NCBI RefSeq assembly: GCF_001469875.2
Contig: NZ_LOPW02000018.1
Span: forward strand, 126,239-190,238
Direction: 5' to 3'
Source of the DNA: Haloferax marisrubri
GTDB lineage: Archaea > Halobacteriota > Halobacteria > Halobacteriales > Haloferacaceae
DNA: 64,000 bases
Positions 41,425 through 54,485 of this stretch are shown in pieces; within the stretch, counting starts at the first letter, position 1, and every line of letters begins with the position of its first letter. A model generated the notes under the pieces. That model saw nothing but the letters and a program-made list of their open reading frames with translations, was not told the origin of the DNA and did no database searches. Both the position numbers and the translations under genes were made by a program.

Positions 41425-42654
41425 ATGCCCTCCAACATGCACACGCGCAGAGCCGTCCTCGCGGCCGGCGGCGCGACCGCCCTCGCGTCGCTCTCAGGCT
41501 GTGTCGCCCGCGCAATCGGTGCCCTCGATGTCGAGCGCAACTACCGACGTGACGCGCCGGTCGGCGACGTGACTGGTGCGTGGCCGACGTACCAGCGCGA
41601 TTTCGCCAACACCGGTTACACCACCGACTCCGGCCCCTCGGCGGACGCGAGCGTCGAGCGAATCGCGTCCGGCGACGCGGCGCTCGCCACCTCGGTCGCG
41701 CTCGCCGGCGGGCGCGGCGTCCTCGGATACAGCGACGGCGACGGTGAGGACGGCGTGTATCGCGCGCTCGACCTCGACGCCGAGGCCGCTCCCGCGGACT
41801 CCGACGACGCGTGGACCGTCGACTACGCCCACGGGAAATCCACGCCCACGCTCGCCGGCGACGCGATGTTCGTCTCGACCGCGGAGTTCGTCGCGGCCTA
41901 CGACGCCCGGACCGGCGAGCGGTGCTGGCGGACGAGCGAGGGCGGGTACGGGACTCCCGCGAACGCGCCGATACTCGCCGCGGGGACGCTCGTCGATGGT
42001 GGGAGCGCGCCCGTCTTCGGGCGCGACCCTGCGACCGGAGAGGAGCGGTGGACGTACGACCCGGGTGAGGTGTCTACCGTTCTCGCCGCTGGCGAAGGCG
42101 TCGTCTACACGACCGTTGGTGCCGACCACGAGCAGACCGGCGTCGCCGCACTCGACGCCGCGACCGGCGAGGAGCGGTGGCGGCGCGAGGACCTCCCGCA
42201 GACCGGCGTCCCGCTCGCGGTAGGCGACTCTCACCTCTACTACAACGCCCACCGCGGGAACGTGTTCGCCCTCGCTCTCGAAGACGGGTCGACGCAGTGG
42301 CGGGCGTCGGTTCCGCTCCCGGAGAACGGAAGCCCGCAGACCGCCGTCGCGGGCGACACGGTCCACGTCCAGTCCTCGCGGGGGAGCCTCGCCGCGTTCG
42401 ACGCCGGCGACGGCGCGACGAAGTGGACGCTGTCGCTCGATGCGGATACGTTCGCCCGCCCGCCGGTCGTCGCCGGCGACACCCGGTTCGTGGCGAGCGA
42501 CGACCGCCTCTCGGCCGTCTCGGCGGCGTCCAGCGAGGTACTGTGGTCGAAGGCGCTCGACGTCCGACCCACCGGCGGCCTGTCGGTCCGCGGGTCGGAA
42601 CTCTACTTCGCCGGGACGGGCAGGAACCCCGGCGTGTTCCGCGTAGCGGACTGA
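41425..42654 (+). CDS. PQQ-like beta-propeller repeat lipoprotein
   Basis: A 409-aa protein predicted to be exported and lipid-anchored: a Tat-like HTRRAVLAAGG start, hydrophobic core and lipobox LSGC (about residue 26). The mature part consists of PQQ_2-type blades with recurring DA.TGE.RW phrases (DARTGERCWRT, DPATGEERWTY, DAATGEERWRR), giving a seven- or eight-bladed propeller. No PQQ-dehydrogenase active-site residues are evident, so it is more likely a scaffold or BamB-like surface protein. The start at 41425 lies 25-31 bases after a TTAGTAC box; ATG 41437 is possible. Four more such lipoproteins lie at 47915-52990. Confidence 0.82.
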   Translation: MPSNMHTRRAVLAAGGATALASLSGCVARAIGALDVERNYRRDAPVGDVTGAWPTYQRDFANTGYTTDSGPSADASVERIASGDAALATSVALAGGRGVLGYSDGDGEDGVYRALDLDAEAAPADSDDAWTVDYAHGKSTPTLAGDAMFVSTAEFVAAYDARTGERCWRTSEGGYGTPANAPILAAGTLVDGGSAPVFGRDPATGEERWTYDPGEVSTVLAAGEGVVYTTVGADHEQTGVAALDAATGEERWRREDLPQTGVPLAVGDSHLYYNAHRGNVFALALEDGSTQWRASVPLPENGSPQTAVAGDTVHVQSSRGSLAAFDAGDGATKWTLSLDADTFARPPVVAGDTRFVASDDRLSAVSAASSEVLWSKALDVRPTGGLSVRGSELYFAGTGRNPGVFRVAD

Positions 42655-47051: not shown

Positions 47052-47184
47052 CGCGGCCTCGCTTGTCGCCGGCGGCGACTAAGTCGCACTCTCAGCCGTG
47101 CGGTCGTTTAAGTGGCCTCCGAGGGCGGGCGACCGCCTCGGCCGCTTCGACACGTCCATGACCGACCGCCGAGACAGCGGACGT

Positions 47185-47871
47185 ATGGGTCTCATCGCCG
47201 AGTTCGACATCGACTGCGACGCGCTCCCGCTGACCGGGGTCGCGGCGGCGGTTCCGGAGGCGACGCTCGCGTTGGAACTCCAGTACAACCACGGCGAGCG
47301 GCCGATGTTCATCGTGACGGTCACCGGCGGGGCACACCGGGCACTCGAAACCGCCATCGACGACGCCGTCGACGTGGCCGACTGGACGCGAATCGGCGAG
47401 TCGGGCGAGACCCGCCGGTATCAGGCCGTCCCGGCGCTGACCTTCGAAGAACAGCTCGGTGACAGCCTCGACGACCTCGCCGGGCTGGAGGCCCTCGCCA
47501 CCGCCGACGCCATCATCGAGCGCATCGAGGTCCGACGGGGTGGTTGGCGACAGACTGGTTGGTTCGCGGACCGCGACGCGTTCGGGCGGTTCGCATCGTT
47601 CTGGCGGCGGAACGCCGGCTTCGGGCTCCGGCGCCTCGCCCGCGACGGCGACCCCGAACCGCCGGGCGAGGGGCTCACCGACCGACAGGACGAGGCGCTC
47701 CGGACGGCGTACGAACTGGGCTACTTCGACATCCCCCGCGGGGCCACCCTGCGGGAGGTCGCCGACGAACTCGGCATCACCGCTTCTTCGACCTCCGAGC
47801 GACTCCGACGGGCGCAGACCCGGCTCATCGCCGAGACGGTGGCGACGACGTGGCCGCCGCTTCCGAACTGA
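47185..47871 (+). CDS. Bat-type helix-turn-helix transcriptional regulator (HTH_10)
   Basis: A 228-aa regulator of the bacterio-opsin-activator family. It starts MGLIAEFDIDCDALPL, the common beginning of short Bat-like proteins, which decides the start over the in-frame ATGs at 47098 and 47158. The N-terminal 150 residues form the Bat-associated sensory fold; the C-terminal HTH_10 spans about 165-220 (LTDRQDEALRTAYELGYFDIPRGATLREVADELGITASSTSERLRRA, in parts). These proteins are abundant in haloarchaea and regulate varied targets. Targets unknown. Confidence 0.88.
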   Translation: MGLIAEFDIDCDALPLTGVAAAVPEATLALELQYNHGERPMFIVTVTGGAHRALETAIDDAVDVADWTRIGESGETRRYQAVPALTFEEQLGDSLDDLAGLEALATADAIIERIEVRRGGWRQTGWFADRDAFGRFASFWRRNAGFGLRRLARDGDPEPPGEGLTDRQDEALRTAYELGYFDIPRGATLREVADELGITASSTSERLRRAQTRLIAETVATTWPPLPN

Positions 47872-47914
47872 CGGGTCGACGAACCACTCGGGTCGGTTGC
47901 GCCCGAAGACCGAC

Positions 47915-49138
47915 CTAACTGAGTCGGACGACGGCGCCCCGGCCGGCGAAGTAGACGCCGCCCTCGGCGACGCTCGGGCCGATGTCGAAGCGCTGGCGTT
48001 TGCCCGCCGCCAGCTCTTGTCGCGTGTTTCCGGTGGGGGCGTCGAGGACGGTTATCGCACCCCCGCTGTCGTCGTGCGTCGGGACGAACACGGTCCCCGC
48101 GCCGACGGCGATGCCGCTCGCGTAGCTTCCGGCGTAGTTTCGGTTGTCCCAGCAGCGGGTCCCGTCGGCCAACGCGAGCGTGACCAACCGGTCGTCGGTC
48201 GCGACGTACACCCGGCTGCCGTCGGTCGCGATGGTCTCGGGCCGCCTCGGTCGACTCTCGCCGCCCGCCCGCTGCGGTTCGAGTCGATAGCGCCAGCGCT
48301 CCGCGCCCGTCTCGGCGTCGAGTCCGAGCACGCTCCCGGCACCGGTCCCGACGAGGACGGTTCCCTCGACCACCGAGACGTTGCACGCGATTCGGGCGCT
48401 CGTCTTCGCGCGCCAGCGCTCCGTCCCGTCGGCCGTCGCCAGCGCCCGGACGTAGGTGTCGTCGCCGGCGGTGTAGACGGTGTCGCCGGCGACGGCGGGC
48501 GTCGAGTCGGAGGGGAATCCGGTCGCGGCCCGCCAGCGGGTCTCGCCGGTCGAACGCGACAGCGCGTGAGTCGCGACGCCCGCTTGGACGTAGACGGTGT
48601 CGCCCGCGACGATGGGGCTCGCGCCGAAGATGCCGCCGCCGAGTCCCTCCCGCTTCCAGCGTCGGTCACCCGTCGCCGCGTCGAAGGCGTGGGTCTCCTC
48701 GCGGGTCACGACGACGAGCGTTCCGTCGCCGACTGCGGGCGCGGGCTCGGGGTCGGTGAGCGGTCTGGTCCACGTTCGCTCGCCCGTGTCGGCGTCGACC
48801 GCGGAGAGTTCGTCGTCCATGTCGTGGACGTAGACGGTGCCGTCGGCGACGACCGGGACGTGGTGGCCCACGTAGGTCTCCACGGGCACCGTCCAATCGA
48901 CGGCGAGGTCGCCCTCGGGGACGGCCTCGGACGCGACGGCCCCGGTGTTCGTCGTCGGACCCATCACGCCGCGCCAGTCCGCGGTCGCCGGCTCGACGGG
49001 GTCGTACTCGGGGCACTCCCCGCTCGTCGGGTTGTGCTCCGACCGCGTTCCGAGACAGCCCGCCGCGCCGACGGCGGCGGCGCTTCCGAGACTCGCCAAG
49101 AGTCGACGCCGAGTCGGTCGCTGGCCGGTGTCGGTCAT
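47915..49138 (-). CDS. PQQ-like beta-propeller repeat lipoprotein
   Basis: A 407-aa predicted Tat-exported lipoprotein (TRRRLLASLGS, lipobox GAAGC at about residue 28). Blades repeat VDADTGERTWTR, DAATGDRRWKR, STGETRWRA, DGTERWRA and DAETGAERWRY. ATG 49138 overlaps the stop of the gene upstream (ATGA, 49135-49138), so it is the second gene of a coupled pair. Function unknown; propellers of this kind can scaffold envelope proteins or, in quinoprotein dehydrogenases, act as enzymes, but no catalytic site is evident. Confidence 0.82.
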   Translation of the reverse strand: MTDTGQRPTRRRLLASLGSAAAVGAAGCLGTRSEHNPTSGECPEYDPVEPATADWRGVMGPTTNTGAVASEAVPEGDLAVDWTVPVETYVGHHVPVVADGTVYVHDMDDELSAVDADTGERTWTRPLTDPEPAPAVGDGTLVVVTREETHAFDAATGDRRWKREGLGGGIFGASPIVAGDTVYVQAGVATHALSRSTGETRWRAATGFPSDSTPAVAGDTVYTAGDDTYVRALATADGTERWRAKTSARIACNVSVVEGTVLVGTGAGSVLGLDAETGAERWRYRLEPQRAGGESRPRRPETIATDGSRVYVATDDRLVTLALADGTRCWDNRNYAGSYASGIAVGAGTVFVPTHDDSGGAITVLDAPTGNTRQELAAGKRQRFDIGPSVAEGGVYFAGRGAVVRLS

Positions 49139-50424
49139 GCGACCTTCACCACCCCGTGGTGCGCGTGGGTCAGATACATCGCTTCCTCGGTGATGACCGG
49201 CGACGCCATCGGTCGCCTGTAGTACGGTTCGGCGAAGTAGTTCCCCGACTGGAGCCACTCGTCGGCGTCGCCGCCCCACAGCCGCGTCCCGTCGGCGGCG
49301 TCGACGGCTCCGGTTCGGAGGTAGACTCGCCCGTCGGCGACGGGCGGGCGAGCGAGATACGGGAGCTCCGTCGGGTCGCGGTCGTGGCTCGGCGGCGCTT
49401 CGTTCACCACGCGCCAGCGCTCGACGCCATCGGTCCGGGAGAGCGCGTAGAGGTTCTTCGCGCCGACGTAGACTCGCTCGCCGTCGACCGTCGGCGGGCC
49501 GGCGGCCTCCGAGCCGGTCACGAACCGCCAGCGCTCCTTGCCGGTGTCGGCGTCGAGCGCGTAGACGGTTCCGCCGACGGTCGCGTACAGCGTGTCGTCG
49601 GTGACGGCGAGGCCGTTGGGCGACCGGCCGTACCGGCCGTCGAGCACCGTCCGCCAGCGCCGCCCGCCGCCGTGGTCGTAGCCGAGGACGACGACCGCCT
49701 CGCGCTCCCGCTCGAACGGCGTGAAGGCGGCGTAGACGCCGCGGTCGTCGGCGACGGGCATCGTCGTCTCGACCGGCTCGTCCGGGCCGACGAGGAGTTC
49801 GAGCGCCCCCGGCCGGTCGGCGGTCCACAACCGGTTCCCGTCGCTTCCGACGGCGTGCAGGCGGCCGTTCCCGCTTTCGACGTACAGTCTGTTCCCGTAC
49901 GCCGTCGGGGTTCCCAGCCGGCCGCCGAGGTCCGCGGTCCACTCGCTCGACCCGTCTCTTCCGACGGCGTGGAGGGTGCCGTCGTAGCCTCCGACGACGA
50001 CGATTCCCGGGTCGTCGCCGACGACCGCGGGGCCGCCGCTGAGCCCGTCCGGGAAGCCTTCGACCCACCGGACCGACCCGGACTCGGCGTCAATCGCGGC
50101 CAGCGGGCTGGTGAAGTCGTCCGGCCTGTAATAGTGGGTAGCGAGTCCGGTGACGTAGACGGCCCCGTCGGCGACGACCGGCGGGGCGAGCGCGCCGTAG
50201 AGCGGCGGGTCGAGGCTCCCCCGCGAGACGCTCCACGAGACGGTTCCCTCGTGCGGGCCGGCCGGTGCGTGGCCCGTCGCCTGCGGGTCGTAGCCGGTGG
50301 TCGGCCACGCCGTCGTCGGCGCGTCGAACGTCGCGTCCGGAGACGGTGGTGAGCCACCGCACCCGGCGACCCCGCCCGCGAGCGCGACTCCGCCGGCGGC
50401 CAGTACCTCGCGTCTGGAGAGCAT
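49135..50424 (-). CDS. PQQ-like beta-propeller repeat lipoprotein
   Basis: A 429-aa predicted lipoprotein starting MLSRREVLAAGG with lipobox GVAGC (about residue 22). Blades carry DAESGSVRWVE, DGSSEWTAD, SDGNRLWTAD, DADTGKERWRF and TDGVERWRV. It is the first gene of the minus-strand pair; its stop overlaps the next ATG. The minus-strand TATA-like GTTTTTATCC (50445-50454) lies 21-30 bases upstream, so it is leaderless. It shares a divergent promoter region with a plus-strand pair of the same family. Confidence 0.82.
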   Translation of the reverse strand: MLSRREVLAAGGVALAGGVAGCGGSPPSPDATFDAPTTAWPTTGYDPQATGHAPAGPHEGTVSWSVSRGSLDPPLYGALAPPVVADGAVYVTGLATHYYRPDDFTSPLAAIDAESGSVRWVEGFPDGLSGGPAVVGDDPGIVVVGGYDGTLHAVGRDGSSEWTADLGGRLGTPTAYGNRLYVESGNGRLHAVGSDGNRLWTADRPGALELLVGPDEPVETTMPVADDRGVYAAFTPFEREREAVVVLGYDHGGGRRWRTVLDGRYGRSPNGLAVTDDTLYATVGGTVYALDADTGKERWRFVTGSEAAGPPTVDGERVYVGAKNLYALSRTDGVERWRVVNEAPPSHDRDPTELPYLARPPVADGRVYLRTGAVDAADGTRLWGGDADEWLQSGNYFAEPYYRRPMASPVITEEAMYLTHAHHGVVKVA

Positions 50425-50553
50425 ACGACCGCCGTCTCGGCGCGGGATAAAAACCTTCGTGGCTCCTCGCTCGAAGGGTTCGCCGGCCGCGGCCGGTCGC
50501 GCCGCCGTCGAAACCAACAGGAGTATTATCAGCCGGACCACACGTCCTCGCTG
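50425..50553. promoter_or_regulatory. Divergent promoter between two pairs of propeller lipoprotein genes
   Basis: In 129 bases there are two well-placed TATA-like boxes, GTTTTTATCC on the minus strand (50445-50454) and TATTATC on the plus strand (50524-50530; 24-30 bases before ATG 50554). All four lipoprotein genes can thus be switched from one control point. Confidence 0.55.
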
Positions 50554-51744
50554 ATGCCCTCCTATTCGAGACGCGACGCGCTGAAGGCTCTCCCGGCGCT
50601 CGCCGCTGGCCTCGCCGGCTGTGCGAGCCTCACGGGCCGCGACGACTCGCTTCCGATGCCGACCGCGTGGACGGCGGGCGTTCGGACTCCGACCCGCGCC
50701 CTGCGCCCGCCGTCCGGCCCCCTGCTCGTCGGAACCGGGAGCCCGTTTCACGCCGACCCGATGGTGTCCGCGCTCGACCCCGAGACCGGCGAGGAGCGCT
50801 GGGCGGTGACCGGCCGGAAGGGCTACCGCTCTCCCCTCGGCGTCGACGACCGGAACGCGTACCTGTTCTCGAAGGCGGGACGGGCCACGGCGGTCGATTA
50901 CGAGGCGGGCGAGCGAGCATGGAACATCGGGCTGACGGGCGTCGGTAGCGCCGACCCGGGCGTCGTTCAGTACCCGCCGGTCGTCGCCGACGACACCGTC
51001 GTCTTCCCCATCTCGGGCACGGAAAACGACGTGGTGGACCGACTGCTCGGGCTGTCCCGCGAGGACGGCGAGCGGCGTTTTCGCGCCGAACTTCCGGCGT
51101 CGCTGGCCGGCGCGCCCGCGTCCGCACCCGCCGGAGGCGGCTCCCAAGCCGGCGTCGTCGCGCCCATTCTGGACGGAACAGTCCGCCGGTTCGCCACGGA
51201 TGAGTCCGAATCGTGGCGCGCCGACGTGGGGGCGTCCCCGTCGTCGGTGGCGGTCGCCGGCGACACCGCCTTCGTCGGGAGCGCGACCGAGGAACTGTTG
51301 GCGCTCGACGCGGCGACCGGCGAGCTTCGGTGGCGCGGGTCGCTCCGAAACACCGTGTTCGCCCGGCCGCTCGTCTCCGACGGCCGCGTGTACGTCGGCG
51401 GCGCGGACTACTTCCTGTACGCCTTCGACGCCGAGACGGGAACCCGACTGTGGCGGCGCGAACTGGCCGGCCCCGTGACCTGCGGACCGACCCGCGTCGG
51501 CGACCGACTGGTGACCGTCGTGGGGTCGGACCTCCTCGTCCGGGGGCACAGCGGGACCGTCCCGTTCGAACCGACCGCGCTGTACGTCCACGCGACCGAC
51601 GGCACCCTCCTCGGCGAGTACCGGTTCGAGGGCTACCTCGACGGCGGCACGGTGAACTGGGTCGTCGCCGCGGGCGACGGCGTCTACGTCGGACAGGAGT
51701 GGCAACTCGCTCGCCTCGACGCGGAGGTGCTCGATGCCGAGTGA
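50554..51744 (+). CDS. PQQ-like beta-propeller repeat lipoprotein
   Basis: A 396-aa predicted lipoprotein: MPSYSRRDALKALPALAAGLAGC gives a Tat-like motif and lipobox. Blades carry DPETGEERWAV, EAGERAWNI, EDGERRFRA, DAATGELRWRG and DAETGTRLWRR. It is leaderless behind TATTATC. Its last 11 bases overlap the next propeller gene, so the two are coupled. Compared with the minus-strand pair it is slightly shorter but has the same layout, suggesting duplication. Confidence 0.82.
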   Translation: MPSYSRRDALKALPALAAGLAGCASLTGRDDSLPMPTAWTAGVRTPTRALRPPSGPLLVGTGSPFHADPMVSALDPETGEERWAVTGRKGYRSPLGVDDRNAYLFSKAGRATAVDYEAGERAWNIGLTGVGSADPGVVQYPPVVADDTVVFPISGTENDVVDRLLGLSREDGERRFRAELPASLAGAPASAPAGGGSQAGVVAPILDGTVRRFATDESESWRADVGASPSSVAVAGDTAFVGSATEELLALDAATGELRWRGSLRNTVFARPLVSDGRVYVGGADYFLYAFDAETGTRLWRRELAGPVTCGPTRVGDRLVTVVGSDLLVRGHSGTVPFEPTALYVHATDGTLLGEYRFEGYLDGGTVNWVVAAGDGVYVGQEWQLARLDAEVLDAE

Positions 51745-52990
51745 GCGTCCGGAGCGGACGGGTTCGGCCGGAAGCCGGGAGCAAACCGTCACCCGCCGCG
51801 AGGTGCTCGGGACGCTCGCGGCCGTCGGCTCGCTCTCCGTCGCCGGCTGTAGCTCGATTCCCGGACTCGGCGGGAGACGACCGGTCTGGCGACGCGATAT
51901 CGACGGGGCGTTCATGGCCGGCCCGCCCGCCGTCACCGACGAACTGGTCCTCGCCGGGATGCAGGACAAGGCGTTGTACGGCCTGCGGCGCGAGGATGGG
52001 TCGACCGCCGTCCGGTTCGAGACCGGCGGCCCGATAGAGACGCGACCCGTCGCCCCGCCGTCCGGCGGCCCGTACCACGTCCACAGCACCGACGGCGACC
52101 TCTACGCCGTCGATTCCTCGGGCGACGAACTGTGGCGCGACGAGGGCACGGCCCATCGAGCGAGACTCGTCCGCACCGAGTCGCTCGTCGCCGAACTCGA
52201 TTTCGCCGGCCCCGAGAACACGCTCACCGGATACGACCCACAGACTGGCGACCGACGCTTCCAACGGGCGGTTTCGTCGTACTCCCTCGACGGTGTCGCC
52301 GACGACTCGGTCGTGGTTCGCGTGCCGGTGAGCGAGACTGAATCGCGCGTCGTCTCGCTCTCGCCGGCGGACGGGAGCGTCCGGTGGCGGACCGAATCCC
52401 AGCCGCGGCACCCCGCGGTCGTCGCGGACTCCCGACTCGCCGTCGCCGTGTGGGACGGGACGCTGGTGGCCTACGAACCGTCGAACGGGAGCGTTCGCTG
52501 GCGAACCTCTGTCAGCAGCCCCGGGCGCACGATGGTCCTCGGGTCGCAGTTGTACCTTTCCCACGACCGACCGGACGGGCACGCGGAACTGCTCGCGTTC
52601 GACCGGAAGACGGGCGAGAAGCGGTGGGCGAATCCCGTGGGCTATCAGATCCGGTCGGTCGAGGCCACGGACGACGCGGTGTTCGTCGGGAGCCGCGTCG
52701 ACGACCCCGACGGCGGGATTCTCGGCCGAGTCGACTGCTTCGGCCTCGACGGCACGCGGCGGTGGCAGACCGTAACCGGACTCCCGTCGCTGGACTCGCT
52801 CGCCGTCACGGGCTCCCGCGTCGTCGCCGGCTGGGACCGGGGCTTCGAGGTGCTTTCCCGGGAGTCGGGCCAGACGCGGTGGTCGTACGAACCAGACTCG
52901 CACAGCCGACTCTCTCTCCGCGTCGAGCCGTCGTCGGTGTTCGTCTCGTACGTCGACGACGGCGCAGTCGCGCGGTTCCCGCTGGAGTGA
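51734..52990 (+). CDS. PQQ-like beta-propeller repeat lipoprotein
   Basis: A 418-aa predicted lipoprotein with a longer n-region (about 25 residues) before TRREVLGTLAAVGSLSVAGC. Blades include DGSTAVRFET, SSGDELWRDE, DPQTGDRRFQR, DGSVRWRTE, NGSVRWRTS, KTGEKRWAN, DGTRRWQTV and SGQTRWSYE, close to eight blades. It starts inside the last codons of the preceding gene (11-base overlap). Function unknown, probably joint with its three neighbours. Confidence 0.82.
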   Translation: MPSERPERTGSAGSREQTVTRREVLGTLAAVGSLSVAGCSSIPGLGGRRPVWRRDIDGAFMAGPPAVTDELVLAGMQDKALYGLRREDGSTAVRFETGGPIETRPVAPPSGGPYHVHSTDGDLYAVDSSGDELWRDEGTAHRARLVRTESLVAELDFAGPENTLTGYDPQTGDRRFQRAVSSYSLDGVADDSVVVRVPVSETESRVVSLSPADGSVRWRTESQPRHPAVVADSRLAVAVWDGTLVAYEPSNGSVRWRTSVSSPGRTMVLGSQLYLSHDRPDGHAELLAFDRKTGEKRWANPVGYQIRSVEATDDAVFVGSRVDDPDGGILGRVDCFGLDGTRRWQTVTGLPSLDSLAVTGSRVVAGWDRGFEVLSRESGQTRWSYEPDSHSRLSLRVEPSSVFVSYVDDGAVARFPLE

Positions 52991-53035
52991 CCGCGAGGAC
53001 GACGCGGCTCGTTGCCTCGCGTCGCTTCGACTCGA

Positions 53036-53350
53036 CTACGCGGCCACCGCGGCACGCCGGTAGTGGATGAGTGCCGTCGCACCGGCGACCAGCCCAACAG
53101 CGATAGTCACGCCGTGGAACGCCACCGGAGGGACCGCCTCGACGACCCCAGCCGAGGACGTGGCGACCAGCGTTGTTCGGACGGCGTCGAGCCCCACTTC
53201 GGCCGCGAGAAGTGGCGCGAGCAGGAACGTTGCTCCGACCTCCGCGCTCCACCTCGTCGGGTTTCGGTCGCGGCGTCTCGCGTGTCGATACGTCGCGGCC
53301 GCGGTCACACTCCCAAGGAGCGCCGCCGCGGCAAGCGTAATCGGGCTCAC
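53036..53350 (-). CDS. Small membrane protein
   Basis: A 104-aa hydrophobic protein with three predicted helices (about residues 2-20, 36-55 and 75-95) separated by an RHARRRDRNPTRW basic loop. The GTG at 53350 is preferred because an ACATTTTC element lies about 22-28 bases upstream and the longer in-frame ATG (53485) adds a hydrophilic tail that would overlap the divergent HEAT-repeat gene. I do not recognise the family. It is divergent from the HEAT-repeat gene across 124 bases. Confidence 0.55.
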   Translation of the reverse strand: MSPITLAAAALLGSVTAAATYRHARRRDRNPTRWSAEVGATFLLAPLLAAEVGLDAVRTTLVATSSAGVVEAVPPVAFHGVTIAVGLVAGATALIHYRRAAVAA

Positions 53351-53474
53351 GGTTCTGTCGTCGCTCCGCGAAAATGTAGTCTTTTTGTCTGTTCTGTTCG
53401 GTGTCGACGACGCGGTCTCCCACCAACTTATTGACGTACCGAGGAGATACTTCGCTAACGAGGCACACGAACCG

Positions 53475-54485
53475 ATGGACGACACACGTCACGCGCCCCC
53501 GCTGGAGCGCCTCGTCGAATCAGCCGAAAACCGCGCCTACGAGGCGGTGAGCGGGGCGCTCGGGGAGCTCCGAACGGCGTCGACCGAGGACCGAAAACGG
53601 GCGCTCCGAGAGCTTCGGCGCCTCGCCGACGACCGGCCGACCGCGTTCGAGTCGGTCCTCCCCGCCGTCACGCCCTTTCTCACCGACGACGACCGCGCCG
53701 TCCGTCTGTTGACCGCGAAGGCGCTCGTCGCGGTCGCGGAGGCCGCTCCCGACGCGGTCGCTCCCGCCGTTCCGTCGCTCGCCGAGCGACTCGCCGACGA
53801 GGACGAGTTCTACTACGTCCGCGCCCGGTCGGCCGAGGCGCTGGGCTACGTCGCGCTCGAACACCCCGACGCGGTCGCCTCGCCGGAGGTGCTCGCGGAC
53901 CTCCGCGTCGGTCTCTCGTTCGACGAACCCGAGGTGAAACAGAAGCTGGCGAAGGCGCTCGAATGCGTGGCGCTCGGCGACCCCGGTCGACTTCGCCACC
54001 GCGTCTCGGCGCTCGCCGAACACCTCGACGACCGGGACGAACTCGTCCGCTATCACCTCTGTACGGCGGTGGCGGTCGTCGGCTGCGACGCGCCGGATTC
54101 GCTCGCCGAGGCTCGGACGGCGCTCTCGGCACGGCTCGCCGACGAGAACGCCTTCGTCCGGGGCCGCGCCGCCGAAGCGCTCGGACTGTCAGTCCGCGGG
54201 GGCGGCGAGGCGGTTCGGGTACCGGATTCGGTGCTCGACGCGGAATCCGACGAGGCGGCCGAGTTCGTCGCCGAACGGGTCCGCTTTCTCCGGGCGGCGT
54301 CGGAGGGAGAATCACTGGAGTCACCGGCCGAAGGCGTTGGGTCGCTGGCCGGCGTTCGGGGCACGACCGACGACGCGGTCGACGAGATTACGTCGCCAGA
54401 CGCCGACGGGAAGTGCCCCCACTGCGGCGTCGACCTCCCCGAGGGCGCGCCGCCGATGTGTCCGAGCTGTGGCGCTCCGTACTGA
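53475..54485 (+). CDS. HEAT-repeat protein with C-terminal zinc ribbon
   Basis: A 336-aa protein of helical HEAT-like repeats (about residues 10-250; for example RAVRLLTAKALVAVAEAAPDAV, YYVRARSAEALGYVALEHPDAV, PEVKQKLAKALECVALGDP, ELVRYHLCTAVAVVG, AFVRGRAAEALGL), an acidic linker, and a C-terminal zinc ribbon CPHCGVDL...CPSCGAPY (four Cys). HEAT repeats bind proteins, and the zinc ribbon could bind nucleic acid or another protein. ATG 53475 is the first codon that starts a clean acidic N-terminus (MDDTRHAPPLERLVE). Partner unknown. Confidence 0.8.
   Translation: MDDTRHAPPLERLVESAENRAYEAVSGALGELRTASTEDRKRALRELRRLADDRPTAFESVLPAVTPFLTDDDRAVRLLTAKALVAVAEAAPDAVAPAVPSLAERLADEDEFYYVRARSAEALGYVALEHPDAVASPEVLADLRVGLSFDEPEVKQKLAKALECVALGDPGRLRHRVSALAEHLDDRDELVRYHLCTAVAVVGCDAPDSLAEARTALSARLADENAFVRGRAAEALGLSVRGGGEAVRVPDSVLDAESDEAAEFVAERVRFLRAASEGESLESPAEGVGSLAGVRGTTDDAVDEITSPDADGKCPHCGVDLPEGAPPMCPSCGAPY

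Follow-up and report, generated by a model that had tools for sequence, protein, structure and literature searches.

The best-described relatives of the proteins studied here are propellers built from pyrroloquinoline quinone (PQQ)-like repeats. BamB (YfgL; PF13360/TIGR03300) is an eight-bladed lipoprotein propeller that is exported by the Sec route and acts together with BamA in an outer membrane, and the PQQ-dependent alcohol and methanol dehydrogenases share the repeat signature and the propeller fold, with a vicinal disulfide, formed by an adjacent cysteine pair, as a feature of the active site. Haloarchaea have no outer membrane, and propeller lipoproteins are common yet unexplained in them. 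Here we analysed a 64,000-nucleotide stretch of Haloferax marisrubri (contig NZ_LOPW02000018.1, positions 126,239 to 190,238; hereafter, ‘the window’) from a source genome of 3.9 Mb in 26 contigs. Four genes for such lipoproteins lie in it as two overlapping pairs that face apart, m1–m2 and p1–p2, and a fifth gene, q5, lies 5.3 kb from m2; the layout described from the sequence alone, including the 4-bp and 11-bp overlaps, the 129-bp gap and the nearby fifth propeller, was confirmed (Table 1). Each pair is kept together across genera and occurs apart from the other, and the quartet appears to be two old, transferable two-gene cassettes set side by side in one Haloferax group.

Relatives were sought in 59 related genomes, including 15 of Haloferax, and in a wider set of 391 Halobacteria genomes, where m1 was found in 26 (profile A1, E <1e-45) and p1 in 29 (profile A3); weak matches of about 22 bits (L171, L177) were not counted. 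At all 27 m1 loci m2 lies directly downstream, and p2 follows on the same strand at 28 of 29 p1 loci, the 29th (L122) stopping at a contig end. The m genes overlap by 4 bp at 25 of the 27 loci and by 11 bp at two, and the p genes by 8 bp at 18 and by 11 bp at 9 of the 28 testable loci. The exception, L100, is from Haloferax sulfurifontis, where codon 383 of the 396 in p1 (L044, L100) is an in-frame TAG. Here p1 stops 31 bp ahead of the p2 start codon without any overlap, which is either a sequencing error or a natural experiment on coupling. Of 20 splits, the partner trees have 15 in common for the m pair and 14 for the p pair (≤3 in 1,000 label shuffles), and partner distances correlate with r = 0.87 and 0.96, respectively, over 20 rows from which three more Haloferax near-duplicates had been dropped. 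The sequence-only reading had called the pairs coupled, and this near-absolute linkage, with short overlaps kept across genera, supports it; the pairing is stronger than the sequence alone could reveal.

Co-directed genes joined by a short stop/start overlap have the arrangement of a termination–reinitiation pair, and the window holds it twice (4 and 11 bp), conserved elsewhere. According to the accessible part of PMC10666635, short overlaps couple translation in Haloferax volcanii, a spacing of about 20 nt nearly abolishes the coupling, overlaps of 4 and 8 bp are among the commonest classes, and 45.2% of gene pairs spaced at −8 to +10 nt encode subunits of heteromeric complexes, compared with 5.6% of wider-spaced pairs. 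By analogy with this work the m and p pairs would be translationally coupled; they resemble the H. volcanii pairs in their 4- and 8-bp overlaps, although the p pair of the window overlaps by 11 bp. Mainly because of the 45.2% versus 5.6% contrast, a heteromer is the most likely product of each pair. The units have spread separately while their two genes were kept together, a further indication that the two members of a pair function as a single complex.

The same comparisons rule out the local duplication that had been proposed for the quartet. In a 98-protein tree that included 23 sequences of each family (23 of 27 m1 loci and 23 of 29 p1 loci, leaving out the Haloferax near-duplicates L075, L076, L078, L080, L097, L100, L101 and L103 and the partials L122 and L124), m1, m2, p1 and p2 each form one clade that spans many genera, with support of at least 99. 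The five propellers are only about 27–38% identical to one another, in partial, repeat-driven alignments, whereas relatives in other genera reach 60% identity to m1 and 57–59% to p1. Profile comparison gave 482 between the m1 core and the m1 group linked to ATP-binding cassette (ABC) genes, and at most 271 between the m1 core and every other family. Separate clades across genera imply that the duplications yielding the four families are older than the genera, and that the quartet was assembled from ready-made pairs.

The pairs also appear to be read separately. When the 129-bp gap was aligned across eight Haloferax genomes, two conserved blocks stood out, one beside each of the start codons, with a variable middle between them. 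Both blocks contain a TATA-like box, which lies about 22–30 bp from the start codon on its side. Instead of the one shared divergent promoter previously suggested, this points to two core promoters facing apart, and the two sides may be regulated separately. The condition that would refute the sequence-only reading, proteins that share nothing but the fold or are expressed independently, is half borne out: between the pairs the proteins are ancient paralogues and each side has a core promoter of its own, but within each pair the linkage is tight. Transfer is suggested by the p tree, which needs nine family changes where the minimum is four, and by plasmid records, of which six carry p1 relatives and one an m1 relative, the p pair being found on Halorussus, Natrinema and Halobaculum plasmids. 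On these data the p pair crosses family lines and the cassettes are transferable. One p locus (G040, L042:7404-9345) looks like a decaying cassette: the signal-peptide part and the C-terminal half of p1 are in different frames, the middle is gone and p2 is open.

All five propellers match PF13360 far over its cut-off, and all five have a twin arginine and a lipobox cysteine, with 15–16 residues from the second arginine to the cysteine. In the available text of PMC2945643, lipoproteins of the twin-arginine translocation (Tat) pathway in haloarchaea have 12–21 residues between the twin arginine and the lipobox cysteine; all five lie inside this range, as expected for the surface lipoproteins with Tat-like motif and lipobox that had been proposed. 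The assertion that a quinoprotein active site is lacking also agrees with our data. PQQ-dependent dehydrogenases share the repeat signature and fold, but the TIGR03075 model for them reaches at best 61.0 bits (m2) against a cut-off of 480, and the vicinal cysteine pair is absent from m1, m2, p1, p2 and q5. The pqqC model has no match in the source genome, but likewise none in all 14 control genomes.

The structure model of m1 (mean predicted local distance difference test score (pLDDT) 69; predicted template modelling score 0.74; seven close sequences behind the model) appears as a propeller of about eight sheets, with strands counted by eye, in agreement with the 7–8 blades assigned earlier to each protein, a claim checked on m1 only. 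Its top Foldseek match is BamB (8orr, E 1e-18), followed by designed propellers and tetrathionate hydrolase (7cqy and 6l8a, E about 1e-15); Protein Data Bank profile searches rank designed propellers first and BamB next. The marks of BamB as an eight-bladed propeller lipoprotein are thus present here, the lipobox in all five proteins and the sheets and BamB match in m1. Unlike BamB, the haloarchaeal genes come as fixed pairs with a Tat-type signal, and TIGR03300 scores 83.8 (m1), 113.8 (m2), 95.4 (p1), 78.7 (p2) and 80.6 (q5) bits against a cut-off of 285.2. Over the 20 rows, 112 columns of p1, 93 of p2, 65 of m1 and 42 of m2 are at least 90% conserved, and p1 and p2 have long invariant motifs outside the blade signature. 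Beyond its lipobox cysteine, m2 has Cys 42, 252 and 329, kept in 13, 12 and 14 of 20 rows, possibly a disulfide or a metal site.

Within Haloferax, close copies of the quartet layout are found in 8 of the 15 genomes, q5 occurs in exactly those eight, and the block of about 12 kb that holds q5 and the quartet behaves as one island. The layout and a ratio of non-synonymous to synonymous polymorphism (pN/pS) below 1 in every comparison, mostly 0.2–0.5 (L045 was left out for m2), are more than chance. The layout and the matching pattern of q5 might reflect one multi-protein surface assembly of four or five propellers, as the sequence-only reading had proposed for the four, and a slight tendency of m and p to be found in the same genomes outside Haloferax points the same way. 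Yet most genomes with either pair hold only one: three Haloferax genomes have only the m pair (G005, G006 and G013; m1 37–41% and m2 35–37% identical), and two other genera only the p pair (G034, G040). The two pairs are about 1.0–2.2 Mb apart in all four non-Haloferax genomes that have both, and the gap of the window holds two separate promoter blocks, so we regard a single assembly as unlikely. It is very improbable that the five are ordinary drifting paralogues of a common haloarchaeal lipoprotein family, brought together by chance island assembly with no special pairing. The family is indeed common and mostly unnamed, with 24 PF13360 matches in the source genome, in about 12 genes by our estimate, but drift fits neither the near-absolute pairing and kept overlap across many genera nor the low pN/pS.

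Two further readings start from the neighbours and the fold. In five genomes (G112, G191, G376, G265 and G139), Natrialbaceae-like by an inferred family name, m1–m2 come after the co-oriented genes of an ABC ATPase and a MacB_PCD/FtsX permease, separated by short gaps only, the Pfam assignment of the permease having been run on three of the five. The m pair could accordingly be lipoprotein partners that dock on the extracytoplasmic domain of a MacB/FtsX-type (type VII) ABC permease and execute or sense its work, in trans in Haloferax; the source genome has six MacB_PCD matches. However, the permease family is present in 101 of the 391 genomes, and the m family stands at only 4 of the 30 best permease loci (flanks of about 1.5 kb), all in genomes already among those with the pair. 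Because most loci of this common permease are without the m family, the link seems to be the arrangement of one lineage. A constant linkage, as for an accessory lipoprotein, was not found, with 5 of 27 m1 loci linked and different neighbours at the rest; there is no MacB match near the quartet, and the p pair as a rule has no such linkage. We consider this reading improbable. Extracellular two-subunit enzymes built on a PQQ-free propeller, as in tetrathionate hydrolase, would be consistent with the appearance of that enzyme among the fold matches of m1 and with the invariant motifs of p1 and p2, but BamB and designed propellers score higher, no catalytic residues were identified in the propellers, and no metabolic genes recur beside them; an enzyme is quite improbable as well.

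The reading we favour, and consider probable, is that the quartet comprises two ancient cassettes, each encoding a coupled, Tat-exported, lipid-anchored heteromeric pair of propellers that acts as a docking scaffold or receptor. The m1–m2 and p1–p2 cassettes would have come to sit back to back in one Haloferax group, each read from its own core promoter, with the second gene translated by termination–reinitiation over the short stop/start overlap. Both products would be exported by Tat and lipid-anchored at the outer face of the membrane, where the two cofactor-free propellers of a cassette may form a stable heteromeric complex. Beneath the S-layer, this propeller dimer would most likely serve as a receptor or a scaffold for docking, resembling BamB in the way it works but not in its pathway. 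Of the BamB-like scaffold or receptor suggested earlier, the fold finds support in the m1 model, and the role is one that we infer.

Several observations weigh against this reading. Congruent partner trees are expected from physical linkage even without interaction. In the accessible part of PMC10666635, 54.8% of the −8 to +10 nt class form no complexes, and the p overlap of the window (−11) falls just beyond that class. The p1 structure model is unusable (pLDDT 51), probably owing to too shallow an alignment. Outside Haloferax, 4 of 376 genomes hold both m and p, against an expectation of 0.84, and the hypergeometric P of 0.007, which ignores the kinship of genomes, is a possible hint of joint function. 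Within Haloferax, all five propellers have one presence pattern and close identity, which also fits a joint block. At 22 p loci outside Haloferax, in flanks of up to 10 kb, the p pair has no constant neighbour; ABC ATPases and PAS-type kinases recur there, but these are large families, and without a recurring neighbour there is no pointer to a partner machine.

The identity of the cassettes, their linkage, overlap, co-evolution and separability, and the lack of local duplication are shown by the sequences. What is new here is probably the organization of lipoproteins of a known fold, that of BamB, as transferable pairs that are probably translationally coupled. No description of the pairs was found in the literature searched on Haloferax and haloarchaeal PQQ, beta-propeller, lipoprotein and BamB proteins, subscription journals lying mostly outside this scope, and the accessible part of PMC8241124 does not mention PQQ proteins. 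That some of these lipoproteins exist only as conserved pairs recasts the annotation ‘PQQ-binding-like repeat protein’, which is misleading on the cofactor, as a testable claim: each complex would have two specified partners, synthesized at a constant ratio, and the genus is amenable to genetics. A single 5-kb stretch thereby offers two independent systems for asking whether overlapping archaeal genes mark heteromers of the cell surface.

The source genome holds a third pair, c1/c2 (L026:2311-4895), close to a deoC-like gene; it encodes PQQ_2 lipoproteins, its genes overlap by the four bases GTGA, and c1 is present in 13 of the 15 Haloferax genomes. This pair might be HVO_2606/HVO_2607 of H. 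volcanii. These are PQQ-repeat genes, neighbours by gene number, that are listed with siderophore genes and lowered together in RNA-seq of a cas1 fen1 double mutant (−2.72 and −2.29 log2), as reported in the available part of PMC9051519. No member varies more within Haloferax than p2, and its variable sites cluster, the observed peak being reached in 5 of 1,000 shuffles; pN/pS is 0.57 at codons 176–300 and 0.20 at codons 41–175, regions picked after viewing the profile. The cluster of variable sites in q5 is smaller than that of p2 (3 of 1,000 shuffles). A broader and rather doubtful proposal is that the m, p and c1/c2 pairs represent a general haloarchaeal class of obligate two-propeller lipoprotein heterodimers, encoded by exchangeable overlapping pairs gathered in islands and on plasmids, which would serve as interchangeable surface recognition modules with p1 as the conserved partner and p2, through codons 176–300, as the variable face.

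Table 1. Propeller lipoprotein genes and associated elements in the window
Feature	Positions	Strand	Description
m2	47915-49138	−	Cassette m, gene 2; Tat lipoprotein of 407 residues, PQQ_2 propeller
m1	49135-50424	−	Cassette m, gene 1; Tat lipoprotein of 429 residues; model with about eight sheets
m1/m2 stop/start overlap ATGA	49135-49138	−	4 bp
Divergent gap m1/p1	50425-50553	.	129 bp; two kept putative core promoter blocks and a variable middle
m1 TATA-like box TTTTTATCC	50446-50454	−	Conserved block in 8 Haloferax genomes, changed in L037; position counted by hand
p1 TATA-like box TATTATCA	50524-50531	+	Same in 8 of 8 Haloferax genomes; position counted by hand
p1	50554-51744	+	Cassette p, gene 1; Tat lipoprotein of 396 residues; 112 columns conserved to 90% or more (20 rows)
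p1/p2 stop/start overlap ATGCCGAGTGA	51734-51744	+	11 bp
p2	51734-52990	+	Cassette p, gene 2; Tat lipoprotein of 418 residues; codons 176–300 variable within Haloferax
q5	41425-42654	+	Fifth PQQ_2 Tat lipoprotein, unpaired, in the same genome block; 5.3 kb from m2

Other roles and partners were considered and set aside. The HEAT-repeat neighbour (53067-54485) was rejected as a partner; its homologues lie near a long PQQ-repeat surface protein in G009 and G010 and near none in G012. Viral contigs, searched with two short peptide patterns each for p1 and m1, gave no relatives that would mark the genes as phage or provirus cargo, and PADLOC gave no defence match for the quartet, q5 or the HEAT protein. 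In H. sulfurifontis (L031), the region corresponding to 47098-54485 is 96–99% identical to the window in m2, m1 and p1, 86% in p2 and 91% in hth10, and this block is probably a mosaic produced by recombination. A distant m pair adjoins a formate dehydrogenase cluster (DUF1641, molybdopterin oxidoreductase) on the Halarchaeum plasmid pCBA1220-01 (L163) and in a second genome (L159, G256).

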